Positions 1-64,000 of a DNA stretch of 64,000 bases are shown here, one piece after another. The notes beneath the pieces were generated by a model, which did no database searches, was not told where the DNA came from, and was given only the letters and a program-made list of their open reading frames with translations. Both the position numbers and the translations under genes were made by a program. How positions within the stretch are numbered: the first letter of the stretch is position 1; each line of letters starts with the position of its first letter. Origin of the DNA: Tetradesmus obliquus (lineage: Eukaryota > Chlorophyta > Chlorophyceae > Sphaeropleales > Scenedesmaceae); the NCBI GenBank assembly GCA_030272155.1, contig CP126199.1, positions 2,170,001-2,234,000 on the forward strand, read 5' to 3'.

Positions 1-405
1 AGGTACGTGGCCTGCTGATATTTTTGTTTGTGTGTTGCTGTTTCATTCCCTTGGCTGTTCTGTCATTGACATGGTGGTGGGATACCAGATTGGACGCTAC
101 CGCCAAGCTGCCTGCCAGCAAAGGTACAAAAGCATTGGTGGTTTTGCTATGCGCCCTTGTCATTCTGTTGAGTGCTCTTTCATAGACATGCTGCTGGTGG
201 GAGACCAGATCGGCGGCTACCGCCCAAGCTGCCTGCCAGCAGAGGTACGGGGTGTGGCGAATTTGCTGTACATGTGTTGCTTGTTCATTATCTTTGCTGC
301 TCTGTCATTGACATGCTGCTGGTAAGGGACCAGATCGGAGGCTACCGCCCCAGCTGCCTGCCCGCAGAGGTGCGCGGCTCGCTAGAGGCAATGTACCTGG
401 GCTTC
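1..405 (+). repeat. Three tandem copies of an exon junction
   Basis: Three diverged copies of about 140 bp occur near 50-115, 165-250 and 300-405. Each encodes a version of DQIGGYRPSCLPAE and reaches a GT donor-like site. Only the third continues into a longer open stretch (VRGSLEAMYLGFN). The first copy has substitutions, so it is older or less constrained. Confidence 0.7.
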
Positions 406-1582
406 AACAGGTTGTACGGAGAAACTTTGCCATCTTATATTGTGTTGGCTTCACACATAGGTGTGTGGTTTGCTGTTGCCAGAATTCAAACTTCAAACCC
501 AGTTACGTACATCTTGGACCGCCATCAGTTCCTTGACCTGCTGCTGCTGCTGGTGCCGCTGCTGCTGGTGCTGCTGCCGCCGCTTCAGGTCCAGGGCCAG
601 CTGGCTGAGGTGGCTGCGGCCTTCCTGACCAAGGTGCAGACCAAAGGAGCAGGCGCGCTCAGCTTCGGGCTGTCAAAGGGCAAGCTGGTGCTGCTGGGGG
701 CACAGATGGGTGAGGAAGTGCAGACAGCGCATGTTATCTCTCCCTCTCTCTCCAAGTTGTGTGCAAATCAGCTGCGCCTTGCTTGATGCCACAACACAAT
801 GGGTCCTGGTTGTGAGCGTCATTACAGGACGAGTACGCATACTATGTACGCTGCTGTTGCACGTTGCGCTGCATTGCAAGCACATCAAAGCATTCTTCAC
901 ATCAGGTGCAGGCACGTCTGTGGCAGAACACTTCATTGAGATGTTCATGGTGCACTGCACCGGCCATGAGTAACAATGCATTTTCTGATATGCAACCTTG
1001 CAGGCACATTTGTGGCGGAGCACTTCATCAAGATGTTCATGGAGCGCTGGGCGGAGGAGTGCACCTACTTCTGCTGGCAGCACGTGCCGCCACGCGGCCT
1101 GGACGTGTGGCAGTTCTGGGCGCGCCTCATGCAGGCAGGCGCTGCCTTCCAGCCGGGCACGTCAAGCAGCGGTGCGTGCAGCATTCAATCGTATCTTCAG
1201 AAGCGTTGTGTTGATATGTGAAGGTGTATGCAAAGGGCAGTGGCTGTTATTACGATGTGTTGGTCTTCCATTGTGGGTGAGATGATACGGATGGTCGCGA
1301 GCCAGCAGTGTGAGCTTGTCTGTAGGCCTGGACGTGTGGCAGTTCTGGTCGCGCCTCATGCAGGCCGGCGCTGCCTTCCAGCCAGGCACATCAGGCAGCG
1401 GTGCGTGCAGAAACACAACGCATCATGGGAGATGTGCAGATAATCAAGATATGGGTTTTCCTTGTGTTGTACCGTTGTAACTGCGTGTGTTAATGCAGTG
1501 GGTGCTGCAGCAATGCATCCGTGTGAGTCAGTTGGGAGCTGCTCACAAACACAGTGTATGATCCTCATGGCTGATGCACCCA

Positions 1583-1618
<36 letters not shown>

Positions 1619-6500: not shown

Positions 6501-9500
6501 TTTGACTCTGACTATGCAGTATTAGTACATATGTTGTCGATGCTTCGCTTGTTGCTTGATGTGCGATAATCGATGCAGGAGCATGGCTTTTAGGCTGTGG
6601 GCCAGAGCATATGTGATGATGCTAGACCTCGTCTGCAGCCTATGCAAAAATAATTAGCCTGCATTGCTGCTTCGCAGAAGCAAGAGCCCTCTCCAAATGC
6701 ACCAAAAACATTTCGTGCGGCTGAGTCGTGCTGCTGCTGCTCCTGCTGTCCGCGCTGCTGCTGCAGGTGCCCAGCCCCGCGGCTGAGTGAGTTCCTTGAT
6801 GCCGGCGTGACGTGTGTGGTGGGGCTGCTGGGCACTGATGACATCAGCAGGAGCAACGAGGAGCTGGTCATCAAGGTGTGTAACACGTCATGCAGACGTG
6901 ACTGTGCATGATGGCATGTACACCGCCGGATACAAGTTGCTAGCAGTGTGCAGTACAACAAGGTACACACAGCCTACTTGCTGCATGGGGGCTGTGCTGC
7001 TGTTGCAGGCAGGGCTGTTGATGAAGTGCAATATGTGTGCGACCTTAGTCACGCTTCTTTGCGCGCAAACCCCTGCTTAGGACTGTCCGTGTGCTGCTGA
7101 CGTCCACCTTCCACCATACACGGCTACCTGTATGCACATCATGCACATACATGCAATTCAAATCTTTGGCTTTCCTTTCGACTGCAGGCACGTGCACTGA
7201 ATGAGGAGGGCATGACAGCGTACACCTGGATCGGCTCCTACACCTGAACGCACGCCCTGCATGTAATGTACATGCATACTTACGTGCCATTTGTTGTCAA
7301 CTGCAGGCACGTGCGCTCAATGAGGAGGGCATGACAGCGTACACCTGGATCGGCTCCTACCACGCACCACCAGCCACCGTCAGCGGCAGCATCAGGGGAG
7401 ACATGTGCCTGGTAGATAGCGCTCTCGGAGTGGGGGAGCTGGCAGTAGCTGACCACAGGGGCAGCCAGCTGTCACCTGCTGAGCTGGCACGCATTGCAGC
7501 AGAAGCACGGGTCGGCGGCATGCTGTCTGGCAAGGTGAGGCTGCTGGATAAGTTTTTGGTGTACACATGTGTTTTGTTTCCTGCAAACGATTGGTCATGA
7601 AGGGGCAGGGGCGATCAAACTAGGCACTTGCAGCAGAGCAGGGGTCGGCGGCATGCTGTCTGGCAAGGTGCGGCCGCATGGCAAGTGTTTCTTGGTGTTG
7701 CTCAAATGCACTTGGTTTTGTGTGATGGCCAGCTGTCACCTGCTGAGCTGGCACGCATTGCAGCAGGAGCACGGGTTGGTGGCATGCTGTCTGGCAAGGT
7801 GAGGCTGCATGACAAGTGTCCCTTTGGTGGTTTTGTGTGATAGCCAGCTGTCACCTGCTGAGCTGGCACGCATTGCAGCAGAAGCAAGAGTGGGTGGCAT
7901 GCTGTCTGGCAAGGTAAGGCTGCAGGAGGATATTCAATGGTTTGGCGATAGATGACAGCATGTGGTTGTCGCGGACAGCTGGGGGGGCATCGGACCTGGC
8001 AGGCCCACCTGCAACATGGGTGGTTCATCATGCTGCCAAGCAAAGAGGGCTGGACTGCAGCAGCACAGCAGCCAGCACAGGAGAGCTCTGCTGTAAGTCT
8101 TCTCAATGCGCACCATGTGCTGCACCTAGCCCCGCACTGCTGAAGAAACTCCCAGGCATCACTATGCACAAATGCTTCATGCAGGATCTTGTGTTTTCAT
8201 TGTTTTGCCTTGCGACCCCATGCAACTGCCTGCTGCAGGCTGGCCTAGTGCACATCCATGTGGGCCCGGGCGCCTCAGGCCTGCAGGCGCTGCGCAAAGC
8301 AGCTGCACTGTGCCTCCTGCCTGCCGTCTTCATTGAAATATGGCGACCTGATTGCTCCCTAGAGTGAAGCACATTCAAACCCCATGCAATTGCCTGCCGC
8401 AGGCTGGGCTGGTGCACATCCATGTCGGCCCTGGTGCCTCAGGCCTGCAGGCGCTGCGTGAGGCAGTGGCAGTCAGCGACATTCCGCTGAGCCAGTTCCA
8501 CCCCACACACATGGACCGCAGCGAGGGGCTGATCGAGCAGGGCGCGCAGTGGCTGCGCGATGGCGGCTCACTGGACTTCACTGGTGAGGCCGCCTTTGAT
8601 TTGTTTTGTTTTGTAGCGGTAACCATGCAACCCATGTGTATGGACCCGTCATAGAGGTTCTTGCTGATCAAAGCACTGGCTGCGCGACGGCGGCTCGCTA
8701 GGCTTCACCGGTGAGGCCCCGCTGCTGTCTGGAACCAATATAACGTCATGGTTTGCAGCAAGCCTACGCCTCGCCTGGCACGTACAACCCCCTCATGCTG
8801 TGATGCAAGCACCCCTTTGCCTGGAACATGACACCTGCTTGCCCTGTGCTGCATGCGCTCGCACAACCCCGTCTACTGCAAAAACGAGCGCAACATGGCA
8901 TGTGAGCACCTGCGGGTGACTTCATTGTCCTGCTGCTGTACTGCTGCACTGCCATGCTGCTGCAGTGCGCTCAATTCGCGCGCGCCGGGCGCTGCAGCAG
9001 TACCACCAGGCTGGCGTGCCGCTGCAGGGTGTGACTGTCAGCAGCGACGCCTTTGGCAGCCTGCCCACTTATGACAGCGATGGGCGGCTGGTCAAGTACA
9101 CGGTGGCTGATGCACGCGCGCTGCTGCGGTTCCTGCGCAATATGTATTTCCAGGTGGGCTGAGCTGTGGCCGGTGCCTCCGGCGACATACAGCAGATATA
9201 TGGCTTGCGTAGTTACATGGTTACGCGGTTCATGCGCAATATGTAGTTCCAGGTGGGCTCACATGTGGCTGCAAACAGTACAGTAAACGGGTGCGGCTGC
9301 ACCTGTGCGTGTGCAGCTACTGCCATGCTGCAATGCACCATGTGACTCAAACATCACAACACGAACATCTGTACACACGGAACAACAGATCCTGTGTCGC
9401 TGCATCCATAATGTGAACTGCGTTCTTGATGTGACCCAAACAATGCTTCCTTGCAGGACCACTGGCCGCTGGAGCACATCCTGCCGCTGATCATGATGAC

Positions 9501-10723
9501 CTCCAACACCGCGCGCCTGCTCAAGCTATTGTATCCCACCATCTTGTGTTATGTTTGTGTTGCAGGACCACTGGCCGCAGGAGCGCATCCTGCCCCTCAT
9601 GACCTCCAACCCGGCGCGCCTGCTCAAGCTGCGGCACAAGGGCAGCATTGCTGTCGTGATGTGTAACATCAACTATCCTTTGCAGGACCACTGGCCCTTC
9701 AGCACATCCTGCAACTTGGTATTGGTTACACGGAACATCCTGCAACTCTGCTGCCGACTGTGCTGCCAATTTTGTGACAACAGCTGTCTTTTGTTGGACC
9801 GACTGTCATGTGCAGGACCACTGGCCACTGGAGCGCATCCTGCCGCTGATGACGTCCAACCCGGCGCGCCTGCTCAAGCTGCGGCACAAGGGCAGCATCG
9901 CAGTGGGCGGGGACGCAGACCTGCTGGTGCTGAGTCATGACACGCTGCAGCTGCGGTACCTGTACGCCAAGGGCGTGCTGCGCAAGACGCCGCAGTGGAC
10001 GCAGGTAGGGTTTGTGCAGCTCCTTGTTGGTGTTAGATGCTTTACACGAAGACCTGCTGGTGCTGAGCCACGACACGCTGCAGATGCGATACCTGTATGC
10101 CAAGGGCGTGCTGCGCAAGACGCCGCAGTGGACGCAGGTAGGCTTTGTGGGGTTTGAGCAGCTACCTTGTTAGTGATCAGGAGTTGCTGCTGTGTGGCAT
10201 GCGTGCAGGAGGTTAGCTGTTGCAGGTGCTGCTGTCTGGCTGGCGTTGGCGGTAGGGGAAGGGTGCCGCAGCATAGCTTGATATGTGCTTAGTAGCAGTG
10301 AATGGCGTTACTGTACAGCTTCCCAGCATGCTTGATACAAGGTCAGCATCATCGCCCACGGCATGTTTGGTGTCTGTGGTGAAGCAGCTCCTACTAGGAG
10401 CAGCGTGTGCAAGTTGCACACGATGCAAGGTGTGACACACGCTGTGCAGTGCCATACCAGAGGAGAAGGAGAGTGTAGACTGTGACGCACATTGTGCAGG
10501 CTCAACATGTAACCGCATCGCTGTGGCTCAACAGCTGCTGCTGCTGCTGCTGCTGCCGCTGCTGCTGCTGCCGCTGCTGCTGCTGCCGCTGCTGCTGCTG
10601 CCGCTGCTGCTGCTGCCGCTGCTGCTGCTGCTGCTTGTGCACCTGCAGGGTGGCTTCTTTGAGAAGGGCAGCAGGATCAAGCCCTACAGCGCAGCAGAGG
10701 ACGATGAGGACAAGGATTTTTGA
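1..10723 (+). CDS. ATP-grasp-like ligase fused to isoaspartyl dipeptidase (5' partial)
   Basis: The gene enters from the left edge. Exons that join in phase are 589-709, 1004-1171, 1791-2058, 2346-2491, 2669-2773, 3000-3136, 3399-3712, 3958-4036, 4522-4605, 4823-5051, 5334-5512, 5796-6481, 6767-6875, 7307-7534, 8403-8583, 8966-9153, 9816-10004 and 10649-10723 (TGA), giving 1161 visible residues. An exon near 332-407 probably precedes them, but its junction is unclear. The first 610 codons look like a pre-ATP-grasp plus ATP-grasp ligase. The last 390 or so match bacterial IadA, a zinc amidohydrolase that cleaves beta-aspartyl dipeptides. A roughly 150-residue Ser/Gly/Ala-rich linker lies between. 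The joining intron 5513-5795 is phase 0 on both sides and no stop intervenes, so I infer one polypeptide. Two adjacent genes remain possible if an unseen stop or start is used. The ligase substrate is unknown. Many junctions have decayed tandem copies in the introns. Confidence 0.75.
905..1890 (+). repeat. Duplicated exon ends in the ligase half
   Basis: Three separate partial exon duplications lie here. GTSVAEHFIEMFM near 910 precedes the real GTFVAEHFIKMFM exon at 1004. The end of that exon (DVWQFWARLMQAGAAFQPGTS) is repeated at 1325-1402 with its donor. The start of the next exon (GVYPLIYLPGVM) appears at 1640 before the in-phase copy at 1791. The extra copies each carry one splice-site-like end. 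Confidence 0.7.
3000..5512 (+). other. ATP-grasp-like ligase module of the fusion
   Basis: The exon at 3000-3136 reads FNELGVRMVGGPPG followed by SSKAFLHRHA, the usual entry to an ATP-grasp fold where a conserved SK precedes the ATP-binding domain. The next exon starts VPRGYICSSVADLLAAYQLL, resembling the inter-domain segment of carboxylate-amine ligases. It then carries a Ser/Gln-rich insertion followed by LLKPLCAGGEGEGLLVV, a glycine-rich ATP-binding loop, and VVLQELLPL, the hinge-strand pattern. Downstream exons give VDTKHLGFRPSE, VVMGVFYFVSVEG and LLVFPETSGLAFEPGSGKAK. ATP-grasp enzymes join a carboxylate to an amine with ATP hydrolysis. The exact subfamily is not recognised; a PGM1-like peptide ligase is one candidate. 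Confidence 0.6.
4001..4175 (+). repeat. Duplicated exon end VPFASGS..LDDCVMDE
   Basis: The end of exon 3958-4036, including its gtgggg donor, recurs at about 4127-4176. The second copy has lost one leucine codon. Only the first copy joins in phase to the exon at 4522. Confidence 0.7.
7189..7915 (+). repeat. Junction duplications around the third dipeptidase exon
   Basis: The exon start (tgcag acceptor plus ARALNEEGMTAYTWIGSY) occurs at 7189 and again, in the intact form, at 7307. The exon end (LSPAELARIAAEARVGGMLSGK plus gtgagg or gtaagg donor) occurs four times, with the MLSGK segment near 7512, 7647, 7779 and 7893, spacings of roughly 135, 132 and 114 bp. The first of these four keeps the frame with the next exon, and so would any copy that carries the whole exon end. 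Confidence 0.8.
8233..8715 (+). repeat. Duplicated start and end of the fourth dipeptidase exon
   Basis: The exon start AGLVHIHVGPGASGLQALR occurs at 8240 and at 8403. The exon end WLRDGGSLDFTG plus donor occurs at 8583 and again near 8675-8711. The copies differ by several substitutions. Only 8403-8583 forms a complete in-phase exon. Confidence 0.75.
9145..10140 (+). repeat. Multiple junction copies around the DHWPLERILPL exon
   Basis: The acceptor plus DHWPLERILPL exon start is seen near 9455, 9566, 9686 and 9816. The last is the copy that runs on to the real exon end at 10004. The exon end (LVLSHDTLQLRYLYAKGVLR plus KTPQWTQ and donor) is repeated at about 10050-10137. A short copy of the previous exon end (FMRNM.FQ) lies at 9230-9255. 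The copies range from near-identical to truncated. Confidence 0.8.
10535..10634 (+). repeat. CTG/CCG microsatellite in the last intron
   Basis: About 100 bp of CTG triplets with a CCG interruption every fifth triplet form a 15-bp higher-order unit. It ends 14 bp before the last exon of the ligase-dipeptidase gene and may serve as the pyrimidine-poor, repeat-derived 3' intron end common in this window. Confidence 0.85.
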
Positions 10724-40457: not shown

Positions 40458-41482
40458 TCATGCGTTGCCGTTTGATGTCGGCTTTGCCGCGCCGTCTGCC
40501 TGCTTATCCTGGTCCTTGTCTGCTTCTGCCCCCTCCTTGCCGTCTGCTGCTTTGTCCTTCTCTGCCTTTGCTGCCTTGTCAGCAGCAGCCTTGACCTTGT
40601 CAGCACGCTCCTTCTCCTGCAAGCAACAGCAGCAGCAGCAGTGGCAGCAGCAGTCAGTTGATTTACCCGCCCGCCCGCCCCTCTTCTCTGGCTGATGTTG
40701 GTGTTGTTGAGGTTTGGGTGTGTGGTGTGGTTTTGCTGGCGCTGTGTGCTTCTGACGGTGCAACTTTTCAATGTCTGATGCCAAGGCGACGCAACATCAA
40801 CCAGGCATGCCAAGAGCAAAGGGCCGGCCAGCACTGGGCAGGCAGCACAGCCTGCCTCCCTCATCATTCACACTCCACAAACAACAAACTAAAGTTCCGT
40901 ATCCACCCCCACGCACCGCCCATATGCGCGCCGCCTTGTTGTCTATGGAGCTTGTGCAGCCCCAGTGTGCTCGTGCTCCAAGCTCATCATCAACCTAATC
41001 GCAGTGTACTCGCACTATATCCATCGAATAATACTCACCGCCCACATGCACGCCTCCTTGTTGTCTATGAGCTTGTGCAGCCCCAGCGTGCTCACAATCA
41101 AGCTCATCATCAACGCAGTCACAGTGTACCCGCAACATATCCATCAACTAACACGCACCGCCCACGTGCGCGCCTCCTTGTTGCCTATAAGCTTGTGCGC
41201 CAGCGTGCTCATGTTCCAAGCTCACCATCACCCCAGCCACAATGTAACCGCAGAATATCCATCAACACAAACTCACCGCCCACATGCGCGCCTCCTTGTT
41301 GTCTATGAGCTTGTGCAGCGCCAGCGTGGAGCGGATGAGGCTGGCCAGGTAGATGGCGGCCATCATGTCGTTGCCCTTCACGGCAAGGCTGGTGGACAGC
41401 GCCTCCACGTTCATGTTGGGCAGCAGGTTGAAGATGTCCTGCGCAGGGTTATGAAAGGCGGCGGCAGCAGCAGCAGCATGTT

Positions 41483-41516
<34 letters not shown>

Positions 41517-43285: not shown

Positions 43286-43319
<34 letters not shown>

Positions 43320-43410
43320 ACAGCAGCACAGCCGGACTCAATACAGCGCAACACAGCCCAATGCAGCTACTCATGGTCTACGCACTGTCAGGCCATCGCA
43401 CTTTGCTGAC

Positions 43411-43463
<53 letters not shown>

Positions 43464-45146
43464 TGCTGGTGCCAATGCTGCCACACCTCCTCTCCACATT
43501 GCAGATAACCAGCATAGGGCGACTGCTGCCATGCCTAAGCCGCTGCTGCCATGACCGCTGCAGCTTCTGCTGCTGCTGCTGATCATCAGTGCGCCTCACC
43601 TCCGCCTCACAGATCACCAGCACGGGGTTGCTGCTGCCGCACTTGCTGCTGCTGCTGCTGCTCCCCTACTGCTGCTCCTGCTGCCGCCGCTGCTGCTGCT
43701 GATTATCAGTGCTGCTCACTTCCACCCCGCAGATGACCAGCACGGGATTGCTGCTGCCACACCTGCTGCTGCTGCTGCTGCTCCCCTACTGCTAGTCCTG
43801 CTGCCACCGCTGCTGCTGCTGATCATCAGTGCTGCTCACTTCCATCTCGCAGATTACCAGCACCAGGGGTTGCTGCTGCCACACAGCATGCTGCCGCTGA
43901 TCCTGCTGATCTAGCTGCCGCTGATCCTGCTAATCCTGCTGCCGTTGATCCTGCGAATCCTGCTGCTGCTGCTGATCATCAGTGCTGCTCACCTCCACCT
44001 CGCAGATGACCAGCACGGGATTGCTGCAGTAGTTGGCCATGAGCGCATGCATGCTCAGGTCAGCCTCGCGCAGCCGCGGGCCCGTGCTGTACCAGCCGAT
44101 CACGTGCTCTCGCGCTGCAGCAACACACATGGTTTTGTGTAAGACGTAACACTGCATGCGTGTGCAAACTTGCGCAGTATCATATGTCATGGATGTGTGT
44201 CATGCACTGGTTGAAGCAGTAGCTGCAGCAGATGTTGCAGACGGTTTCAGCACGACTGCTCCTGCTGCTGACCCTGCGGGCAGCTGTTCTGCGTCGACTT
44301 GCCAGCTGGAGGAGCTGGCGCAGCTGCTGCTGTAAACACTGCCAGGTTGCTGCCGCTGAGGCAACCAACGCCACACCGCTGCTGCTGCATCTCACCGTTG
44401 ACCTTCTTGAACATGTGGACATGCAGACCAATCTCTGCTGCCGAGGCAACCAACGCCACACCGCTGCCGGTGATGCTACGCGCTGCTGCTGCTGCTGCTG
44501 GGCCTCACCGTTGACCTTCTTGAACATGCGGAACATAATCTCCAGGTAGCTGTGGTCCAGGAACCAGATGGAGGGGTCCTTGTCATCCTCCTCAAAGGGC
44601 ACTGCAGGGACAGATACAATTGTAATGTAAAGTATCAGTAACATGTTTTTTGGGTTCACGAAGATAAGCAGTATTCAGAGATCACTGCTGCCAATCAGTG
44701 CTGGGCTTGGAGGAGCATGCGAGCGCTGCTGCAGAGTCAACGGCTGCGTGTTGATGCAGAGGTAGTGCATGTGCAGTTGAGATGTTGGTTGGTTAACAAG
44801 AAGAGCAGGCTGCATGGGACCAATTTGCAGTGGATGGTGCAGGACAACAGGTACCATTTGAGCAGGACAAATGCATGTGATGAGAGCAAACAGGTGGTGA
44901 ATCCTGCAGGTGCTGCTGATGTGCTCTGTGTGCAAACTGTACAGCCAGGCAGCAGAGCTGCAGCAGATGAGGCCCCAGTTGCGTACCTGCAAAGCTGTTG
45001 GTGACATCTACTTGCCCCTTATATGTTTCTCCTAGCAGCAGTCCGATTACGCGCTTCTTTGTGTCCTTTGCTACTCTGTTGTAATGATCAACCACACACA
45101 GCAGCACCAAAGGGTGCAGCACAACCTTGTCTGGCACCCCAGGCAT
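40458..45146 (-). CDS. RPN8: 26S proteasome regulatory subunit RPN8 (PSMD7), MPN domain
   Basis: Eight exons join in phase: 45146-44987, 44601-44509, 44114-43993, 43275-43219, 42792-42717, 42342-42161, 41438-41277 and 40616-40458, giving 336 residues. ATG 45146 gives [16 protein letters not shown], the standard start of the MPN domain. [43 protein letters not shown] and [14 protein letters not shown] are diagnostic. The HxHx7Sx2D metal site of the active partner RPN11 is absent (GWYSTGP instead of a His pair), as expected for RPN8, which is structural and pairs with RPN11 in the lid. The C-terminal helix ([15 protein letters not shown]) mediates lid bundling, and the tail is Lys/Asp/Glu-rich. 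The gene is head-to-head with the TM9SF gene. Several introns carry junction duplications. Confidence 0.95.
40918..41300. repeat. Four 120-bp units from an RPN8 exon end
   Basis: Sequence encoding [13 protein letters not shown] plus a donor and about 70 bp of intron recurs at about 40918, 41039, 41159 and 41279, a regular 120-bp step. The copy at 41279 is in the real exon, and the others show increasing substitutions such as Arg to Cys or Thr. Confidence 0.85.
41438..42200. repeat. Copies of two RPN8 junctions in one intron
   Basis: The start of exon 41438-41277 ([16 protein letters not shown]) is repeated at about 41576-41520 and 41680-41637. The end of exon 42342-42161 ([12 protein letters not shown] plus donor) is repeated, more degenerate, near 41794, 41925 and 42040, spacings of roughly 131, 115 and 117 bp. 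The intron therefore carries extra copies of both of its own ends. Confidence 0.8.
43413..43460 (+). repeat. (CTG)16 microsatellite
   Basis: A pure CTG run lies in an RPN8 intron. It produces long poly-Leu and poly-Ala open frames that are not coding. Confidence 0.95.
43570..43995. repeat. Four copies of the [10 protein letters not shown] exon end
   Basis: The end of RPN8 exon 44114-43993 with donor and gatcatcag intron start recurs near 43855, 43735 and 43617, about 120 bp apart. CTG-rich filler separates the copies. They keep the LVICEVE coding sense with a few changes. Confidence 0.8.
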
Positions 45147-45694
45147 GTTTGCAGTGCCGCTGATGCGGCTGTATCAACGGATCACGGCCTTTAGGATAGA
45201 ACAGGCTGCTGTGGCTGCGTGTAGTTGAAAGTCGGGTAGCAAAGCTGTTGTGCTGCAACTGTTCCTCTGTCGGGACTTGATCAGCGCTCACACAAAGTCA
45301 GCAGTAACGTTGAAAAGTACGTTGAACATCTTGGCAAGATCACAGCTGCAACAGCAGCTTGAAAGCTGAACTAACGTAAAGCTCGGGTACAGCGTTGTGT
45401 GCGAATGTAGTTTACCTGTTGTCAATCTGAATGAAGGCGTCGTATGACATTACTTTTTCGAAGCAATTATATTCAAGCTTTTAGCACAGCGGCCTGAAAG
45501 GAGTTTGAATGCGAGTCCGTTGATGCTGCAGTTTACACTGCACTCGTCAGTGGGGAAGGCAGGCTGTTCCTGCAGGACATTCCATAGCGCTGCGTGCAAG
45601 TCGTTTCATAGTCTGACATGCTCTGATTCGTAGCTGGTGGTCTTTGCCAACAACCAGTTTTGCTAGCAGCAGCAACAGCAGAAGGAGCAGCAGC
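45147..45694. promoter_or_regulatory. Divergent promoter region of RPN8 and the TM9SF gene
   Basis: 548 bp separate the two opposing start codons, with no gene between them. A shared bidirectional promoter is the natural inference from this head-to-head layout. No TATA box or proteasome-type element was identified with confidence. Confidence 0.45.
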
Positions 45695-48600
45695 ATGGCA
45701 AGGCTACTCTTGCATGCACAGGTGGCCCTGCTATTCGTCATTTGTACAGCAAGCGTATCATATGGCTTTTATCTGCCTGGAGTGGCTCCGCAGGACTTCA
45801 GGAAAGGAGGTGAGTCACTGGCATATTTCGCCAGATTGCTAGCAGCAGCTGGAGAGCACAGGGCTTGGTTACAGCACACACCATAACAGCACCAGCAGGA
45901 GGCTTGCTGAGCTGCTTGTTGTGTTTGTCTGCAGCCTGCTGCGCATCTGGCTGCAGCCTGTCACCTCTAGTTGTGCATGCCAACCTAGCGCTCCCTGCAG
46001 ACGCCTGCCGCAGCGAGGTGAGCAACTGCCCTGCTCCTCCCCCTATGAGCCTCTGGTTGGCTCCTGAGTGGGGCTTCCACTCCTTGATGAGTGGAGTATG
46101 CAACGTAACATCAATATTGCCGGATCTGCGTCTCCTGTGCCGAGCAGATGCCATGTTCCTCAAGGTCAACAAGCTGTCATCCATCAAGACACAGCTGCCG
46201 TACGACTACTACAGCCTGCCGTACTGCCGCCCTGAGCGCATAGTGAACTTCGCAGAGAACCTGGGTAGGTCCCAAGGCTGCCCTGCCTGCCATATCAGCC
46301 CTGACCTGGATGTACATGAAGTGCCACGGTGCTATGCTATATATGCTTGCAAGGCTTCCTTCCATGAACTTCGCAGAGAACCTGGGTAGGTGGCAGGTTC
46401 TTTTGTCTGAAGAAGAAGCACTGGCAGCCACGACAGGCAGGGTGCTGCCTGCCCTGCTAGGGCCCCCCCCCCCTGGTGTGCATACCCGCATTGTGAACTT
46501 TGCTGAGCACCTGGGTAGGCCCCAAGGCTGCTCTGCCTGCCTGTTAGCCCAGTGCCTCCGAGCTTGCTACCTATAGGCTTCCTTGCGCCGTGCGCTGCCA
46601 GGTAGACAGGCATGCAGAGCAATGTCTAGGTCTTTGTCACATGTGCAGACTGCAGGGATTGCGGCCTGACATCCTGCAAGGAAGAGTAACGGTGCAGCTT
46701 CACAAGTTGCATAGCATTGGACGGCAAGCAACCAGCTCAACCTTTGAACGCCCTGTGACGCGTGCTCAGCTGTGCTGCTGCTGTTGTGTTGCTCCACCCT
46801 GCAGGCGAAGTACTGCGCGGGGACCGCATAGAGAACTCAATGTATGCGATCCGCATGCTCGAAGATGAGCAGTGCAAGGTGCTGTGCAGGATTGAGGCGC
46901 TAAGTGAGGCGCAGGCGCGCGCATTCAGGCTCAAGATTGACGATGAATACAAGGTCAACATGTGAGCGCACAGCAGCAGCAGCAGCAGTGACGGCGAGTA
47001 CAAGGTGGTTGTTTGAGCGCCTGGCAGCAGCAGCAGCAGCTGCGGCAGCAGCAGCAGCAGCGACGACGACACGTACCGGGTCAATGAATGAGCGCCTGGC
47101 AGCAGCAGCAGCAGCCAGTGGCAGCCGTAGTTTGTGTGTGGCATGCTGCCATCATTGCAGTATCAGCCATGCACCAGCTGTTGCTACAGCTTAAGAAGCA
47201 GCTGCAGGTGGCGGTGCACTGTCAGGCATGCGGCTGCTGCTGCTGCTCTGTGTGTTGTGCTGAAGCGATGATGTGCCTGATTGCCACTATGTCCAGTGTT
47301 GTCCAGCATGGCTGTGTTGTTGCTGCTTCTGGCGCCTGCAGGATCCTGGACAACTTGCCTGTTGCTATGGTGCACATGCGACAAGATGAGAAGGGGCAGG
47401 TGCGTGCCGCTGCTGAGCACATCAGTCACGTCTAAAAGAACTGCCAGGCTTGCGGCGGGATGTTAGCTGCAAAGCACCATGCAGTGCACAAACATGCAGT
47501 ATCATGTACTGTCCCTGCTTTGATTGAAACCCTGGCGTGCTCACTAGCGTTGTACATATGCGTCAATCATCAGCGCGGCAGTGCAAGACGCAGTTTATTT
47601 GCATGTGGGTTGCGCATGATCCGTATATTACTGACAATGCAGATTATTGTGCTGTTTCCTGCAGGTGTTGAAGGCCTATGAGCGCGGCTTCTACGTCGGC
47701 TTTGTCCTGCAGGACAGCGACAGCGACGAGCTCGTGCACTACATGTACAACCACCTGCGCTTCAACATTCTGATTCACACGGATGCGGAAACAGACCTTT
47801 CGCGCATCGTGGGGTTCGAAGTGGAGGCCTTCTCAGCAAAGCACAGGTATGACTAGCCCTCTAGTAGGCTTGTGCAGCTGGCGGCTTAGTCAGTGAGCTT
47901 GTTGGGTTGTGGCGCAGCTAGAAATGGGGGAGGCGGCAGTGAGATGTTGCAGAGGGTGGCGTGCATTTGCGCAGGCATGTAGCTGGCACGCAGGTGCAGC
48001 GAGCTGCAGGGTGCTTTGGCAGTGACAGGTGTGCTGTTGGTGGTGGTGTGCATTGCCTGCATTGGCGCCGGCTTCTTTCCACATCATGATTGCTTGGTTG
48101 CATCTCAACAACTCAAATGCACGGCAACCTGATGCTGTATCTTGTTTACGTCAGTGAGCTACTGTTGCTGTGCTTTACACATTGATTTTTGCACCCATCC
48201 AACTGCTGCGCAGCTATGACAATACCTTCAGTGCCGAGAAGCCTGAGCTCAACACCTGCAACCCCGGGAAGAAGATTGCAGTGTCACACACGCTGTCGCC
48301 GCAGCCCGTGGCAGAGGGCAATGAGGTCATCTTCACATACGATGTGAAGTTCACGGTGAGCAAAGTGTGAATTCAAGAAGCACATGGCATGAAGTTCACG
48401 GTGTTCGTGATGCGAAAGTTCATCGTGGGCAAGAGGGGGTCAGGTTCTCCCAACTGATGCGGCAGGTGCTTGCAGCAATACGACGACTTGGCGCGAAACG
48501 GCAGGCGTGCAGTGGGCTTTTGCTCTGTCAGGTTCACTGTTGCTCAACGCATGACAGTCTTCAGGTTGCCACCTTCTGACACATGTGTGCATTTCAAACG

Positions 48601-51060
48601 TGTCTGTTTGTGCTGTGCAGCAAAGTGACATCCGCTGGGCGTCCCGGTGGGACACCTACCTGAAGATGACTGACACGCAGATCCACTGGTTCAGCATCGT
48701 GAACAGCGTGGTCATCGTGCTCTTCCTAAGCGCCATGGTGGCGATGATCATGCTGCGCACGCTGTTCAGGTGGGCAGTTATGACGACATAATAGTGCCTG
48801 CATGTTCTGCTCTTTGATACATGACAGTTCATTGGGATCAACTCAAGCCACCATGATGGGCATGATTATGCTGCGCATGCTGTTCAGGTGGGCGGGTGGG
48901 CAGCTAGAGAGTGCATGTGTTTCTCCCACTGTACAACGGTGACTCTGCCTGACCATACGCAGTCGACGACCGTCAAAGCCAGGGCCACAGACTGAGTTAC
49001 CCGTGAAGCTCAACCACAAGTGCTGAACACCAACCTGCTGGTACCCACTAGCAGCATTGCTGGCGGCTGTCCCTCACAAGGCTGCGGTGGCGGCTGCGGT
49101 GGCGGCTGCAGTGGCGGCTGCGGTGGCGGCGGCTGCTGCAGCCTTACAACAATACGATACATCACGTCACACCTTGCCGCACGTCTGTGTCCCCGTGTGC
49201 TGCTGCGGCCTGCAGGGACATTGCAAAGTACAATTCCCTTGAATCCCAGGAGGAGGCTGCCGAAGAATACGGCTGGAAGCTCGTGCACGGCTGCTGCAGC
49301 CTGACAACACATCCAACACTTCATCACACACTGTGCCGCATGCCTGTTCCCGTGCGCTGCAGGGACATCGCAAAGTACAATTCCCTTGAAGCCCAGGAGG
49401 AGGCTGCCGAAGAATACGGCTGGAAGCTCGTGCACGGCGATGTGCTGCGCCCGCCACAGCACGCCTCGCTGCTCTCTACTTATGTCGGCACCGGCGTGCA
49501 GCTCTTCGGTATGCTGCTGGTCACAACCTTCTTCGCACTGCTTGGCTTTCTATCGCCTTCAAACCGCGGAGGCTTGATGACTGCAATGCTGCTGCTGTTT
49601 GCGGGCAACGGCCTGCTCGCCGGGTATGCGTCGGCTCGGCTGTACAAGACGTTCCGAGGCGAGCAATGGAAGGCCATGACGGCTCGCACCGCGCTGCTGT
49701 TCCCCGGCATCGTTTTCGCGGTCTTTTTCGTTCTGGATCTATTCGTATGGCACCAGGACAGCAGCGGGGCGGTTCCATTTGGCACGCTTGCAGCACTCGC
49801 CTTCTTGTGGTTTGGCATATCAGTGCCCTTGGTCTTTGTGGGCTCTTTCTATGGCTTCAAGAAACTGGCTCCTGAGGACCCTGTGAGGACGAACAAGGTG
49901 CTGCGGCAGGTCCCAATACAGCCCTGGTACATGCACCCCGCGGTGTGCTGCCTGATCGGAGGCGTGCTGCCTTTTGGGGCAGTGTTCATCGAGCTGTTCT
50001 TCATCCTGAGCAGCGTGTGGCTGCACCAGTTCTACTACCTGTTTGGCTTCCTGGCGCTGGTGTTTGTCATCCTGTGCATCACCTGCGCGGAGATCAGCAT
50101 CGTGCTGTGCTACTTCCAGCTGTGCAGGTGGGGTTTATCTGGTGGTGGTTTAGGGTTTTGGGCCAGAAGGCTACTAGGGTTCAGTGACGGCAGGGAGTTG
50201 TGCCTTTGCATGCTGTGATGTTGTGGCGTCAGCACGGCCAGCAACATGTACAAACGTGCTTTGCTCACCTATGGTTGTCAGGAGTATTGCAGCCGCCGGG
50301 TGTGTTGTTGAGCTCTGAAGGTCCAGGCAGCTGAGGTGGCATGGCCGCGCAAGGATGCGTATGTATACATGCTGCATTTTGGCGTTTTTTGCTCTGGAGG
50401 AGCAGCACACCTTGCTCTGCAACAACAAAACTCACCATCCTTACTTGTTTGAATAACATACATCTTTTTTTGCACGGTATGGCTGCTGCGGCTGCTGCTG
50501 CTGCTGCTGACCGCCTGCAGCGAGGACTACAACTGGTGGTGGCGCGCCTACTTCACAAGTGGCTCCTCCGCACTGTACCTGTTTGCGTACAGCGCCTTCT
50601 ACTTCTACAGCAAGCTGAACATCAGCAAGCTGCTGCCACAGGTGGGTTTTTTTTTAGTTAAATGCCTAGATGCGTTTGACCTGGTATGCCTCGAGCATGT
50701 TCAGGCTGAGTGGTGGGAGGCCAGGGTATTGCAGCCCACACCATCGCACTGGCTGTCATTTGCAAGGCATTGGGCATCTTTTTTAGCCCGGTTGTGTGTG
50801 GACACCCTCTACTCGGTATAACGCCTACATGGTAGTGCATGTGACACTGTTGTGTGCTGCTGCAGGTGCTGTACCTCTGCTACAGTGCAGTCGCTCACCA
50901 TATGCTGCCACACTTCTGCTGTTGCGTGCTGCTGCAGGTGCTGTATTTCACGTACATGGCCATGGTTAGCTACGGCTTCTTCTGCCTGACTGGCACCATC
51001 GGTTTTGTGGCCTGCTACTGGTTCGTGAGGCAGATCTACGGCGCCCTCAAGATCGACTGA
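45695..51060 (+). CDS. Transmembrane 9 superfamily protein (nonaspanin/EMP70)
   Basis: Ten exons (45695-45809, 46148-46264, 46805-46961, 47342-47399, 47665-47846, 48214-48355, 48621-48769, 49363-50127, 50521-50641, 50938-51060) join in phase to 642 residues, the normal family length. A signal peptide ([21 protein letters not shown]) precedes [11 protein letters not shown], the invariant mature N-terminus. The lumenal domain has [11 protein letters not shown] and [17 protein letters not shown]. Nine hydrophobic helices begin with [19 protein letters not shown]. Family motifs include [29 protein letters not shown] and [15 protein letters not shown]. The tail KID fits the KxD/E Golgi-retention signal. 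TM9SF proteins act in endosome/Golgi trafficking and sorting of membrane proteins. Confidence 0.95.
46240..47095 (+). repeat. Duplicated exon ends in the TM9SF gene
   Basis: The exon end FAENLG plus gtaggt donor (46264) is repeated at about 46370-46388 and 46492-46515. The end of the next exon (DDEYKVNM) is repeated twice, at about 46990 and 47068, within CAG-rich sequence. Only the first copy of each joins in phase. Confidence 0.75.
48745..48895 (+). repeat. Duplicated exon end MIMLRTLFR
   Basis: The end of exon 48621-48769 and its gtgggc donor recur at 48852-48890 as [11 protein letters not shown]. The copy is short and lies wholly in the intron. Confidence 0.7.
49205..49450 (+). repeat. 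148-bp tandem copy of an exon start
   Basis: Acceptor plus [20 protein letters not shown] at 49215 is followed 148 bp later by the real exon start at 49363 ([20 protein letters not shown]). Nearly all bases match, so the duplication is recent. The first copy is followed by intron-like sequence after KLVHG. Confidence 0.85.
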
Positions 51061-55683: not shown

Positions 55684-58491
55684 ACAGCCGGCACCTGCTG
55701 CTGCTGCACAGCCGGCACCTGCTGCTGCTGCACAGCTGGCACCTGCTGCTGCCACTGCACTGCCGGCACCAGCTGCTGCTGTGCCAGCGGCACCTGCTGC
55801 TGCCGCCGCCGCTGCTGCTGCTGCTGCTGCTGCTGCTTGTCTGGCTGCACACATGGCCGCCCAACTGAGCCCTGCGGCTCCAGCTGCAGCTGCGGCTCCT
55901 GCTGCTGCTGCTTCTGCTGCTGCTGGCCCGCGCCTGCTGCCTGCGCTGCCAGCCGCTGCTGCACCTCATCCATCACGCCCTCCTTGTTGTCTGGGTCCTT
56001 GTCGCGCGCCCCCTCTGCAGAGTCGCTCTTCTGCTGCTTCTGCTCGCGCTCCTGCTCTGCGCGCGCCTCCAGCTGCGAGGGAGTGGCGCCCAGGTTGCGG
56101 TCCTGCGGCAGAAGCAAGGTGCAGCAGCAGCAGCCGCAGCAGCAGCAGCAGCAGCATCAGCAGCAGCACGGCGCAGCAAGAAGCACACAAGGGTGAGCTG
56201 GCCAGCATACACAGCATACACATGCTGTGCCGCATGCATGACTGCAACGTGTTGATGGTGGAGCAGTCCTGCAGCAGCAGCAAGGGGCAGCAGCACGGCG
56301 CGCAAGAGAGCTGTGAATGCTGAGCCAGCCTACGCTATTGTCCCACACAACTGCAGCGCCCATGCGGACCTGCCCAGGGTGAGTGCAGTAGCTGCGCCCC
56401 TACCGTGGACGTGCATCAACGTGCGCACATCATACCCCTCGCCACAACACCCGACAGCACGCCTTTGTGCAGACACACGGCTGCGCACCAGTGCACCACA
56501 ACACGCGCACACATCCCCACCAGTTGCCATGTTGCACCTCTGCAGGCCTCACTGCTATATCAACAGCACCACCGCAGCACAACACATGCGCATTCCTACT
56601 GCTATGCACCCAATGCACCACGCAACACTCTCGCCGCAGCATGCTCTGCACCACCGCTTGCACTCGGCCGTCTGTGAGAACACGGACGACCTGGTGCAGG
56701 CAGTGGTGCAGCACATGCTGCAAGAACGTGTTGGGGCGCACAAGTGCACAGCCAGGGCTAATGATGTGCTGATGTATGCCTGAACGTGCGTATACGATGC
56801 ATGTAGTCACCCACGCGACACTCACCCGCATCACGCTCTGCACCACCTCCTGCACTAGGTCATCGGTGTTCTCCTCGTCGCGCGGCAGCAGCAGCAGCAG
56901 CTCGCCCGCGGGCGTGGGCAGGAACACCAGCAGCCGCTGGCCCAGAGACACCACAATGAAGCGCGCACGGTCCTTCAGCTGCTCCCTGCAGGTCGTCAAG
57001 TTTGCGACAACATTGTGTTAGCAGCCACAGCACACGTGCAGCACAGCAGGGTGAGCCATCACCGCGCGGTCCGTCAGCTGCTCCCTGCACGCAAGCCGCG
57101 GCACCAGCACAGCACAGCGCAGCGCAGCAGGGTGCGTTGTTGATGTACATGCAGGAAGACGACAGGCAGGATGAAGCGCGCGCGGTCCTTCAGCTGCTCC
57201 CTGCAGGACGGACTTGCAGCCGCACAACACACGTGCAGCACAGCACAGCGCAGCAGGGTTTGTCGTTCGTGAACAGGCAGTGCGACGGCAGGCAAGATGA
57301 AGCGTGTGCGGTCCCTCAGCTGCTCCCTGCAGGCGTTGAGGCAGCAGCACAGCGCACGTGGAGCACAGCAGGGTCAGCCGCGTCCGCACCGGCGCTCTGG
57401 AGGCACAACATGCGCACAGGCAGCTGGCAGACCAGCCGCCCGCTAACACTGGCAGCAGCAAGCTCGCAGCTCACGCTCTTGCATGCAGTACAGACGCAGC
57501 ACCGCACACCGACCCAGGCAGCCATGCAGGCAAACATACAATGTGCAGGCAAGCAGGCAGCATGCATTCCGGACGCAGGCAGCCAGACCGCGCGGCCACT
57601 CACTGCACGCTGATGCGCGCGTTCTGCACGGGCACAAACTTGAGCGGCTTGTAGGACAGCTCCGCGCAGTCCGCATAGCGGGAGATGCTGGGGTGCAGCT
57701 CCAGGTCAAACACGCCGCCCACCAGCTGCTTGCGGTCCTCGCCAGGGTTGGGGGTCTGCAGCTCTGCAGATACGAATGCCCGCAGGCAAAGGGGCAGCAG
57801 GAGGTGCGGCAGCGGCAGCGGTAGCAAGGAGGGATGTCAAAGGGGTTGCCAGTATAGTCATATGTAACCCACATGCAGCCACTCTCTGTCAAAGGCAAAG
57901 GCATTGGAAAGGCGGCAACAGCAGCAATAGATACAGATGCAGCATACATGGTTAACGGTTAAGCGCACCATGTTGTGCGCCAAGAGCTGCAGGTGTCCCT
58001 GCAAGCCCCTGACAGCAGTGTGTATCTATGTGCACCGCAGCCAACAAGCTCAGGGCTCGGCACAATGCAGCGCCGCAATGCAGCAGCCCAGCGCATCGCA
58101 GCTGCGCCGGCGCCTGGGATCATCTCGTCCCTGAAGATTTGGCGCAACTGTGCAGCAAGCATCATGCCCAGCGCAGCAACAACCAAACTTGCAGCACACG
58201 CCGCAGCGCAGGCGAGGCCCCGCCCACCTGGGGTCATCTCATTCCTGAAGATGTGTTCGCAACTGTACAGCAAGCATTAAGCCCAGCCCAGCCACCCACC
58301 TGGGATCATTTCGAGCCCAGCCCAACCACCAAGCTTGCAGCCACACGCCGCAGCACAGGCGAGGCCCCACCCACCACCCACCTGGGATCATTTCGTCCCT
58401 GAAGATGTGGCGCTGCTGCTCGCTGGCCAGTGCCTCCATGGGGTGGCACAGCTTGAGGTGGCCCTTCAGGTCCAGCATGATGTGCAGCTGC

Positions 58492-61842: not shown

Positions 61843-62818
61843 TCAATCCTCCTCCTCTGCGCCGCCAGCTCCCTTCTCCCCTTTCACCTTGGAGGACTTC
61901 TTGGGCAGCAGGTGCGTGTGAATATTTGGCATCACACCGCCGCTGGCAATCGTCACCTGCCCCAGCAGCTTGCTCAGCTCCTCATCGTTGCGGATGGCGA
62001 GCTGGATGTGGCGAGGGATGATGCGGTTCTTCTTGTTGTCGCGCGCAGCGTTTCCTGCAAGCTCCAGCACCTCAGCACTCAGGTACTCCAGCACAGCAGC
62101 GAGGTACACGGGGGCACCTGCGCCAATGCGCTCCGCGTACCTGCAAAGCACAGCAGCGTACAGCAGCAGCCTCAGGCTCAAGACTTAAGGCTTGAGTGCC
62201 ATGGACAGCCACTGAGCAATGCACATGAGGCGTCCTGCCAGCTGTGCGGCATCATGCTGGGTTCATGGCTGTGCAGCTCATGGCACATAATGTACATTAC
62301 ACTTGTCTCAGCATGATGCAGCGCCAACGTCACACAGGGTCTGCTGCACCAGGTGAGCTGGGCCTTCACAGCTGCAACATAGGCAGTGGTTAAACCTCAG
62401 GCAGTGCCTGGCACACTCTGAGGATGCAGTGCTGCCTGCTCACCTGCCTTTCTTCAGGTAGCGTGCCAGCCTGCCAACAGGGAACTGCAGGCCAGCTTTG
62501 CTGGAGCGGGACACTGACTTGCCCTTGGGCCCACCAGACTGCAGTGTCAAAAGGGCAGCAGTGCAGAAGTGTTTGCCGCGTAGCACCACTCTCCAGCACC
62601 ATCATGTTCGACCTAAGGAAACGTTGTTCAAGTTCAGCCTGCCAGGAATGTCATAATTGCAGCTAAGCCATGCATGCAAGCCATCTGGCTGTGCAATATC
62701 AGCCAAGCAGGGCTATGTCCACAAGCTTTGAAGCTGACAGCAGCATAGTACTGCAGCCATTGCACCTTGCTGCATAAGGAGACTGTGTGCGCACCTTGCC
62801 CTTTCCTCTGCCGGACAT
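61843..62818 (-). CDS. H2A: Histone H2A
   Basis: Three exons (62818-62795, 62538-62444, 62140-61843) join in phase to 138 residues. The start is MSGRGKGK, followed by [20 protein letters not shown], then [19 protein letters not shown]. The acidic-patch and docking parts ([44 protein letters not shown]) match canonical H2A. The C-terminal tail ends [12 protein letters not shown] with no SQ motif, so it is not H2A.X, and the L1/docking residues do not suggest H2A.Z. It forms the H2A-H2B dimer of the nucleosome. Two introns, one after only eight codons, are unusual for replication-dependent algal histones and suggest a polyadenylated, constitutively expressed copy. No H2B, H3 or H4 partner lies in the window. 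Confidence 0.95.
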
Positions 62819-63600
62819 GTTTACTAGAACAAGGAAGCTGCTGTTTGACGCTGTGGCTGGCACAGGTTGCGGGGCAATGTAGGCAACGTGCAAACCAGGC
62901 TGAAGCCCGTCAATATAGAAATCTTCTGCGAATGGTGCGCTGCGCCCACCAATACGACTGCTTTTGGCAGTTTCAGTGTGTTTGGTTTGGGAAGGGCCGT
63001 CTTGTGGGAGCCCAATCTGATGGTCGAGGCGAGGTTAACCAGCTCGTCCAATGAAACAGGAAATATTCCCGGAGCCATCTGGCTAAGCAGCGTGTGTGAT
63101 GTCGACTGCACAATAATGTAAATGAAGAGAGTTCCACTCCATTCCAGCAGCACACGCACTGTACGTGATCCATATAGCCCACACCACCGACAAACCACAA
63201 TGGTACTGGCCTGATTTGCAGTGGCAGTCATGGCTGATCACACATCACAACCACACATCACAACCATGCGTATCAAGGGAGCAGTGGCCTTGCATCAGTG
63301 CACATGGTCAACAACGCCCAATGTACGCAATGCATGCTGGTAGCACAGCTACACCACCAACACCAGCAGACACGCAGGTCCCAGTGTACACAATGACGAT
63401 TCGCTGTGCTGGACATGACTCAATTTGGAATTGCCGATGCACTCTTTCTGAACAGATAGACTGCCTTCTGGATAATCCAGCGTATGCCCAAACAGCCACG
63501 GCATGCTATGCTTGCTTGATGGGTCTAAGTCATAGATGCTGCGCCAATGCATATGCTGCTGATGTCACCGCACTGACACCTGCGTGTCCCCGACTAAATG
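62819..63600. other. Region between histone H2A and the next minus-strand gene
   Basis: 782 bp hold the H2A promoter side and the 3' flank of the gene ending at 63601. No divergent histone partner and no coding exon was found. Confidence 0.4.
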
Positions 63601-64000
63601 TCAGATCTGGTCCACCAGGCGCTCCATCATCCTCAAGCTAGTGTTGTAGTAGCCGCCTGCAGCAGCAGCAGCAGCAGCAATAGCAGATCTTAGGCCTGGG
63701 ACGTGCTGGTATATCATAAATATCTTACCCAGTGGGCGCTGATCAGCATGCCAAGCTGAAACCGGCACAACACAGCAATGTCGTCACCGCCGCACAAGTC
63801 GGGTGTAGGTGAGGCAGCGATTGAGCAGGTACACAGCATGCTGCGCATCCCCAAACCCTTACATCCAAAGAGATTGGTGTGGTTGAGGTAGTAATGCAGC
63901 AGGTACAGCTCGCCGCGCTTGTCAAACATTTGTGCACACACAACTTGTACAGTCAAACATAAGCATTGTAACCCAAGTCCTTACCGCCGAAGAGGTTGGT
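63601..64000 (-). CDS. 3' end of an unrecognised gene (partial)
   Basis: Exons read leftwards from the window edge. One ends at 63863 and codes FDKRGELYLLHYYLNHTNLFG. A 27-bp exon follows at 63755-63729 (WHADQRPL), then the last exon at 63656-63601 (GGYYNTSLRMMERLVDQI, TGA). The phases fit (1-1-1). A second copy of TNLFGG plus donor lies at the very edge (63988-64000), so the exon end is duplicated here too and the real copy may lie outside. An alternative is a longer middle exon reaching 63815 (LCGGDDIAVLCRFQLGM), but its phase does not fit. Family not recognised. Confidence 0.5.

Follow-up and report, generated by a model that had tools for sequence, protein, structure and literature searches.

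Direct copies of exon edges and splice sites within introns of the green alga Tetradesmus obliquus

Related systems

Introners likewise bring extra DNA into genes in the form of introns, and in mutually exclusive or duplicated exons, copies of an exon lie in neighbouring introns with their protein sense conserved. Unlike introners, the spacers tested in the alga are not a repeated family. The algal copies mostly comprise one exon edge, the second splice site being absent from most of the 17 pairs read but present in the ArgJ array and at 1325-1410. In intron gain by tandem genomic duplication, an exonic segment containing AGGT is duplicated and the new intron arises between the copies (PMC3443670). 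The alga resembles that system in the direct duplication around an AGGT-like splice site; however, its junctions pre-exist and its copies are mostly parted by unrelated spacer. The decoys (extra copies) of the Rpn8 and dipeptidase genes sit within introns whose true ends lie elsewhere, which excludes them as cases of this route, and no newly made intron was observed, leaving the original prediction's link to intron gain without support. A repeat-filler-repeat layout, common to the algal copies, is known from another case of intron gain, but there short repeats flank the new intron, whereas the algal blocks of ~30-120 bp straddle an old junction. A model for the joining step proposed below comes from mouse germ cells, where, according to PMC12918824 (citing Lukaszewicz 2021), end joining between nearby meiotic breaks produces both deletions and tandem duplications locally, mainly upon loss of ATM; the inter-homologue origin is one that we infer for the alga. 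Our literature search, judged by titles and abstract openings and with subscription journals mostly outside its coverage, retrieved no description of the phenomenon.

Copies at splice junctions in the window and beyond

The window is the whole 64,000-bp stretch analysed (C9:2170001-2234000) of a genome of 104.66 Mb in 17 contigs; the sequence is eukaryotic, and chlorophyll a/b-binding genes are present in the genome. It was surveyed together with 18 of 20 sampled 10-kb stretches (labelled L0xx), L018 and L019 being left out of the counts as satellite- or transposon-like, and the counted stretches contain no N. Genes, frames and junctions were predicted from the sequence alone by an HMM gene finder, and this junction set contains some decoys taken as exons and a few wrong-strand calls. 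Each query consisted of 50 bp on a predicted junction, in an exon or intron interior, or in intergenic DNA, and was scored as positive when a direct copy lay at most 400 bp away. CAG/CTG-rich queries were excluded before counting, and introns shorter than 90 bp were excluded from the junction-versus-interior comparison.

Nearby direct copies were found for 138 of 545 splice-junction queries, for 12 of 309 exon-interior queries and for 7 of 157 intergenic queries, all seven of the latter from one array. Intron-interior queries were positive in 42 of 395 cases, 35 of which belonged to junction families, leaving 7/395 unrelated to any. Exon interiors, unlinked intron interiors and intergenic DNA, the comparison by which the original prediction was to be judged, were thus far below junctions. 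Inverted copies numbered two across all four kinds of query. The observation is confirmed and reaches beyond the window.

Within the window (Table 1), 77 direct self-matches lay less than 2 kb apart. The five series of repeated junction copies originally listed all aligned, with scores of 23-44 to the first member versus 5.0-11.3 at controls 2 kb off. According to the gene finder, 32 window junctions are outermost copies and carry 51 copies, a tally that includes a few double counts or wrong-strand calls (e.g. 4139/4142 and 35824/35825), so that the earlier minimum of 25 junctions is a reasonable one. When the search was anchored on exon sequence alone, it gave 47 copies at 38 predicted window junctions. 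Donors and acceptors each carried copies, as had been claimed. When the six true exon pieces of Rpn8 are spliced together, the resulting 230 residues (protein ends not included) align without a gap over 225 residues with a solved Rpn8-like protein, indicating that the extra copies are outside the product. The claims that one copy keeps the frame and that the others are intronic were supported.

Table 1. Genes, true splice sites and decoys in the window
Feature	Position	Strand	Basis and remarks
Isoaspartyl-dipeptidase-like gene (amidohydrolase)	6767..10137	+	HMM model; spliced product Pfam Amidohydro_1 E 2.2e-15; copies at at least 6 junctions
Decoy of acceptor 7306	7178..7241	+	covers 10 bp of the intron end and 54 bp of the exon start; identity 95%, the two differences in the exon part being at third codon positions
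True exon end + donor (7534)	7464..7553	+	gene model
Donor decoy 1 (site 7667)	7628..7678	+	self-match
Donor decoy 2 (site 7798)	7728..7817	+	self-match
Donor decoy 3 (site 7913)	7842..7927	+	four exon-part substitutions, in three codons, all synonymous
Decoy of acceptor 8402	8215..8302	+	exon part: 1, 0, 7 differences at codon positions 1, 2, 3
Decoy of donor 8583	8673..8718	+	self-match
Decoy of donor 9153	9225..9269	+	contains in-frame stop
Acceptor decoy 3, exon starting 9816	9451..9527	+	self-match
Acceptor decoy 2, exon starting 9816	9560..9654	+	self-match
Acceptor decoy 1 (short), exon starting 9816	9680..9712	+	self-match
Decoy of donor 10004	10046..10149	+	self-match, exon-anchored search
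Decoy of ArgJ donor 35188	35068..35105	-	self-match
Two copies of ArgJ exon start, true acceptor 35362	35545..35883	-	self-match
256-bp array, 2.3 units, 98%: ArgJ exon end + intron	36002..36588	-	true donor 36515; full-unit class; ArgJ by homology
Rpn8/PSMD7 gene	40458..45450	-	true exons by homology; MitMem_reg 5.2e-36, JAB 9e-15, 8amz_U 1e-90
True donor (41276) + three decoys (41158, 41038, 40916)	40911..41328	-	full-unit array
Two decoys upstream of acceptor of exon DIFNLLPN	41525..41678	-	self-match
Decoys of donor 42160	41787..42000	-	self-match
Decoy of acceptor 42792	42882..42939	-	self-match
True donor (43992) + decoy series downstream	43411..44027	-	self-match
Decoy of donor near 44508	44378..44419	-	self-match
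TM9SF/EMP70 gene	45762..51060	+	EMP70 1.6e-202; decoys at 46385, 46514, 48887, 49215
True acceptor 56985 (gene model) + three decoys (57084, 57200, 57326)	56956..57379	-	self-match
True donor 58381 (gene model) + decoys (58299, 58227, 58113)	58113..58413	-	self-match

Copies were unevenly spread: L004, L009 and L020-L022, with 7-14 predicted introns each, contained no direct pair under 1 kb. A difference between centres and arms was considered and rejected, since C1-C3 at 4.0 Mb had none, yet the likewise mid-contig L031 had three pairs; L033 had none, and L032 has no predicted coding sequence.

Block structure and silent differences

What recurs is a block made up of an exon edge and its splice site, and most copies are not plain head-to-tail. 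The spacer lacked homology to either flank in 55 of 56 two-copy pairs, one pair reaching z>3, and was thus rejected as an eroded copy of the flank. As a general rule, plain tandem duplication was rejected on the same count; "tandem", as originally proposed, applies to the full-unit arrays (e.g. 36002-36588 and 40914-41328), the intron side matching too in 30 of 172 copies. Block and spacer lengths were independent over 87 pairs, which rules out a minisatellite or fixed 120-bp unit and the 110- to 135-bp period previously suggested. Distances between successive copies had a main peak at 80-160 bp and a second at 220-280 bp. Collectively, the original interpretation stands as to wide occurrence and existing junctions, and lacks support as to a fixed unit, a plain tandem rule and intron gain.

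Each of eight chosen young spacers was single-copy genome-wide, and a repeat-family search matched 17 of 58 fillers versus 17 of 57 controls, arguing against a mobile element or introner. Among 17 pairs chosen as young or clear, 13 concern donors, and in nine of these the block includes 6-10 bp of intron (0, 12, 17 and 18 bp in the rest); three of the four acceptor pairs include 3-10 bp of it. Over all junction copies, arrays included, the intronic part of the block was shorter than 20 bp for 34 of 69 donors and 15 of 46 acceptors. Similarity showed no trend with distance from the true site (16 vs 16), and the idea that the newest copy lies closest to it was rejected. Decoy splice dinucleotides were intact in 65 of 88 donors and 73 of 84 acceptors, a neutral-like decay in which they are not specially kept; selection on decoy splice sites was therefore rejected.

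Codon positions were compared in 122 copies, reduced to 108 non-overlapping ones by taking out 14 overlapping pairs. In 29 of the 108, no difference was found at 1,066 sites of codon positions 1 and 2, compared with 73 differences at 531 third positions; a shifted-frame control gave four such copies. Many young decoys thus differ from their true exon by synonymous changes only, and the remaining 79 have changes at position 1 or 2. An age-independent position-3 divergence of 0.12-0.15 was preferred over zero by 43 log units, and the fitted rise with decoy age was low (k was 0.41 with s set to 0.12, and 0.07 with s set to 0.15). Among copies of the 122-copy set with no position 1 or 2 change, third-position differences favoured neither the true exon nor the decoy, whether scored by base (31 vs 36) or by preferred codon (44 vs 42), a balance like that between two working genes. 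It does not look as if the copies arose from the true exon by simple decay. Where the introns of young copies could not be aligned, third-position differences extended up to the junction (0.17, 0.17, 0.16, 0.13 and 0.10 outward). In array units with alignable introns, decoy-decoy differences had little codon bias (0.047 vs 0.062, 12 pairs), and 19 true-decoy pairs with alignable introns gave a position-3 divergence of 45/331 versus 22/657. In the L017 array at 5781-6119, two silent versions, read by eye, occur in the order a-b-b-a.

Possible origins of the copies

The reading that we tentatively favour, without calling it probable, is that many decoys may derive from a diverged version (another allele or lineage) of the gene in which they lie, as fragments left by error-prone joining; diverged homologues would be the source, end joining the step, and recombination, perhaps meiotic, the occasion. 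Exons of different versions would align, while introns would often have diverged past recognition. A broken end in one version's intron would be joined ~30-100 bp upstream in the other version's exon (with the mirror case at acceptors), giving the full exon, a truncated piece of one intron, a further exon edge that carries its own splice site, and then the other intron, of which only the exon edge and splice site would appear repeated. The same event within introns or between genes would leave no visible repeat, and events within exons would be purged by selection. Decoys would then decay neutrally and sometimes grow into arrays by slippage between blocks.

Several results argue for a diverged-version origin. 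The 29 silent-only copies and the age-independent position-3 divergence suggest copies that differed like two alleles from birth. Flank-unrelated, single-copy young spacers, the block ends near the splice motif in the picked young pairs, third-position differences up to the junction beside unalignable introns, the little codon bias among array decoys and the a-b-b-a mixture all point the same way. Homologues with matched exons and unmatched introns do exist in this genome: a chlorophyll a/b-binding (LHC) paralogue pair differs at 6 of 225 third positions, and its intron 1 similarity is 0.65, compared with 0.654 for unrelated introns. However, this pair scores 0.71 at intron 2 and 0.82 at intron 3, showing that introns are not always beyond alignment, which counts against this origin. 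The low age slope also counts against it, since divergence should rise with age, although a ceiling on detectable divergence may be the cause; so do the copy-free intron-rich stretches and the block edges, which do not always lie at the splice motif. Given the 45/331 despite alignable introns, later exon replacement must be added. In such a variant, the true exon might have been replaced by a diverged version through within-exon recombination, and diverged homologues would be needed too. The third-position diversity required, near 0.15, is very high for one species. If source introns are unalignable, intron-only events would leave no visible repeat, so the centring on junctions would be an effect of detectability, and splice junctions need not be the target of the mutation.

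More doubtful is the wider statement that about one quarter of the tested junctions in the sampled sequence hold fossil pieces of other gene versions, scars left by error-prone exchange, the species being hyperdiverse and exons its sole islands of homology. If true, faulty recombination between diverged alleles could lengthen introns, and in this alga their growth would mostly be a side effect of such exchange. Silent alleles of vanished haplotypes would be readable from a single reference genome, and past allelic diversity and misjoined recombination measurable from one assembly. Near-identical decoy splice sites would be tolerated at a large share of junctions, and the alga would offer a natural test of spliceosomal choice among them.

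It seems unlikely that the decoys are working alternative exon ends or exons, under coding constraint now or until recently and then broken. Such constraint would account for the synonymous-only divergence, for the 88 of 122 copies free of frame-breaking indel and stop, and for block edges often coinciding with the splice motif; an acceptor-like AG and a donor are both present in the ArgJ array copies, as are an AG before and a donor after the copy at 1325-1410, and several of the exons called by the gene finder are copies. Yet most of the 17 pairs read have no partner splice site at the exon-side end, frame-breaking indels make up 44 of 61, 13 of which lie in copies without a position 1 or 2 change, and splice dinucleotides are not specially preserved.

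Recurrent plain tandem duplication of a ~120-bp segment in one genome, with only junction-spanning copies surviving and staying visible as the true exon is conserved and the intron erodes, is improbable. It fits the direct and local nature of the copies (at distances under 1 kb, 209 matches are direct and 6 inverted), the full-unit arrays with matching intron sides, the neutral-like decay, and a gain in intron length per decoy of 106 bp among introns under 1 kb and of 66 bp among all introns, a relation confounded by longer introns holding more decoys. Spacers are nevertheless unrelated to flanks even at 95-100% block identity, the detection-corrected expectation of ~63 intron-only copies is about nine times the 7 seen, and many young decoys differ at third positions only.

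Ancient tandem duplication, with gene conversion keeping decoy and true exon similar, is a very improbable source. In its favour, at a TM9SF junction shared by two paralogues each decoy resembles its own gene, and similarity has no near-to-far gradient, but conversion would reset silent sites, and a 14% third-position difference with none elsewhere is unexpected after a recent event. An assembly artefact placing two haplotypes of a heterozygous alga end to end has just as little likelihood; it would, we infer, give the same layout of true exon, spacer, decoy and flank with silent differences, but the 79 copies changed at position 1 or 2 exceed what a working haplotype should show, some copies carry stops or frame-breaks, arrays of at least three copies occur, and the 17-contig assembly has no N in the counted stretches. 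Least likely is junction-targeted mutation via RNA or the spliceosome, which would suit the strong centring on junctions and the block edges at splice motifs but leaves the synonymous-only divergence unexplained and, like expression as a driver, which we rejected, sits poorly with one weak pair in 10.5 kb of three LHC genes, members of a highly expressed family.

The HMM finder's calling of several decoys as exons is a warning for gene predictors.

Extent and placement of the copies

Self-comparison of the window (contig C9, bases 2,170,001-2,234,000, in a genome of 104,662,953 bases and 17 contigs) gave 77 direct matches at less than 2 kb, and all five junction-copy series named in the original prediction were borne out. 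The wider sample added to the window twenty stretches of 10 kb, taken at 1.0 Mb on 17 contigs and at 4.0 Mb on three, and picked by position rather than randomly; matches at less than 1 kb numbered 209 direct versus 6 inverted. At that distance, zero direct pairs were found in five of the stretches (L004, L009 and L020-L022), each with 7-14 predicted introns, and the copies are thus absent from some genes. One gene in these many-intron stretches looked MAP-kinase-like by eye.

Gene models were predicted, without RNA evidence, by a small hidden Markov gene finder trained on the sample, which fuses genes and takes some decoys (extra copies of an exon edge and its splice site inside an intron) as exons. 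In the main examples the true copy was set by homology. Splicing six exon pieces gave an Rpn8 product of 230 residues, of which residues 1-225 formed a gap-free alignment with a solved Rpn8-like protein. Pfam matches were significant for Rpn8, the dipeptidase, TM9SF and H2A, and ArgJ matched solved ArgJ and ornithine acetyltransferase. The presence of chlorophyll a/b-binding genes, together with general knowledge, indicates a green alga; the G+C content of the window is 57%, and the Tetradesmus obliquus report gives 109 Mbp, 57% G+C and a mean intron of 462 bp (PMC5966456).

Copies centred on predicted splice junctions beyond chance, a check that the original prediction had called for: 78 of 100 repeat clusters lay across a predicted junction versus 39.7 expected from random placement in the same stretches, and 6 lay entirely within introns versus 27.4 expected. 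When 50-base queries were searched 400 bp to each side (copy, score of at least 22), direct copies were found for 82 of 285 donors and 56 of 260 acceptors, versus 12 of 309 exon-interior, 42 of 395 intron-interior and 7 of 157 intergenic queries, both location tests resting on predicted junctions that include decoys taken as exons. Inverted copies were confined to two exon-interior queries, with none for donors, acceptors, intron interiors or intergenic DNA. Thirty-five of the 42 intron-interior hits were part of a junction family, and all seven intergenic hits came from a single array. Since simulated detection of intron-only copies was 0.69 of that for junction copies, about 63 would be expected at equal birth rates by our own arithmetic; 7 were seen. 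No published account of these junction copies was recognised in the literature searched. We rate the phenomenon as a variant of known local duplication, unusual in its scale and divergence signature.

Anatomy and divergence of the copies

Block identity averaged 88% in 56 two-copy pairs, and the spacers matched neither flank (means 0.57 upstream and 0.58 downstream versus 0.57 in the control), similarity exceeding z 3 in one pair. Each of eight young spacers was single in the genome. The block, the repeated exon edge with its splice site, was long on the exon side and shorter on the intron side. In 29 young copies whose introns did not match, identity held at 0.98 as far as 30 bp into the exon; on the intron side, counted from +7, it dropped through 0.55, 0.47 and 0.35 (control, 0.26). 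Over all junction copies, arrays included, the block covered fewer than 20 bp of intron in 34 of 69 donors and 15 of 46 acceptors; in 17 hand-picked pairs it ended 6-10 bp inside the intron in 9 of 13 donors and 3-10 bp inside in 3 of 4 acceptors. Full-unit arrays, with tandem units of exon plus intron, occur too. Because block and spacer lengths varied independently (87 pairs), the 110-135 bp period originally described is a mode rather than a unit.

Divergence from the true exon was determined for 108 non-overlapping copies at 65 junctions, and was 0.061 at each of codon positions 1 and 2 but 0.149 at position 3. In 29 of these copies, positions 1 and 2 showed no difference (1,066 sites) and position 3 showed 73 in 531; a shifted-frame control gave only 4 copies with such a position-3-only pattern. 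The best fit had a position-3 divergence of 0.12-0.15, independent of decoy age and 43 log units better than none; with the neutral slope fixed at 1.7, 0.08 was favoured, 34 log units over zero. In a 122-copy set, the differences in copies unchanged at positions 1 and 2 were symmetric in base and codon preference. With differences that are silent, age-independent and symmetric, a young decoy resembles a fragment of a different, functional version of the same gene. Other decoys had changes at all three codon positions. Indels in exon blocks were frame-breaking in 44 of 61 cases and splice dinucleotides were intact in 65 of 88 donor and 73 of 84 acceptor decoys; decoy decay therefore shows no visible selection.

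Possible source of the decoys

Read from one genome of a single strain, these patterns suggest diverged homologues as the source. The copy and the true exon would derive from gene versions with alignable exons and unalignable introns, which would account together for blocks that reach only a short way into the intron, for spacers unrelated to the flanks and for the apparent lack of copies confined to introns. An exon-matched, intron-unmatched state exists in this genome: two light-harvesting chlorophyll a/b-binding paralogues differ at 6 of 225 third positions, and their intron 1 similarity is that of unrelated introns, introns 2 and 3 being more alike (0.71 and 0.82). Counting against diverged homologues are the low slope of the position-3 fit, the differences at 45 of 331 third positions seen even in 19 pairs whose introns do align, and some copies whose block extends far into the intron. 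The strongest rival holds that decoys are former working exon pieces, and some copies, in ArgJ and at 1325-1410, do carry both an upstream AG and a downstream donor. If diverged homologues are the source, end joining between breaks on the two homologues would be a plausible joining step, and may act in this alga by analogy; in mouse, meiotic breaks lying close together are described as sites of tandem duplication (PMC12918824).

Other features of the window and sampled stretches

Each tRNA call in the table was made by one program and unreported by the other.

Repeats, tRNA calls and a paralogue in the window and sampled stretches
Feature	Location	Strand	Description
74-bp stretch	window 46035-46108		at least 26 genome matches at 86-90%, most sharing end points; within predicted TM9SF gene, close to gene start; no tRNA or Rfam family call
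Dispersed element, ~155 bp	window 40643-40800		at least 9 further matches at 75-83%; in Rpn8 intron, past last decoy
Minisatellite	window 21664-22648		36-bp units, ~27 copies, 71% matches
tRNA-Leu	window 61298-61382	+	ARAGORN
tRNA	window 61486-61580	-	Rfam
TM9SF paralogue	C10:1913482-1918750 (stretch L025)		paralogue of window 48715-48893

The RTL(F/Y)R donor has decoys in both TM9SF paralogues, each similar to its own gene. The light-harvesting paralogues of stretches L029 and L030 have exons 98-100% identical and an intron 1 like unrelated introns, which may reflect either homogenisation confined to the exons or very rapid change in the intron. Stretch L019 contains a coding unit, transposase-like by eye, in a repeat of ~4.28 kb (exons at 640, 4922 and 9204).
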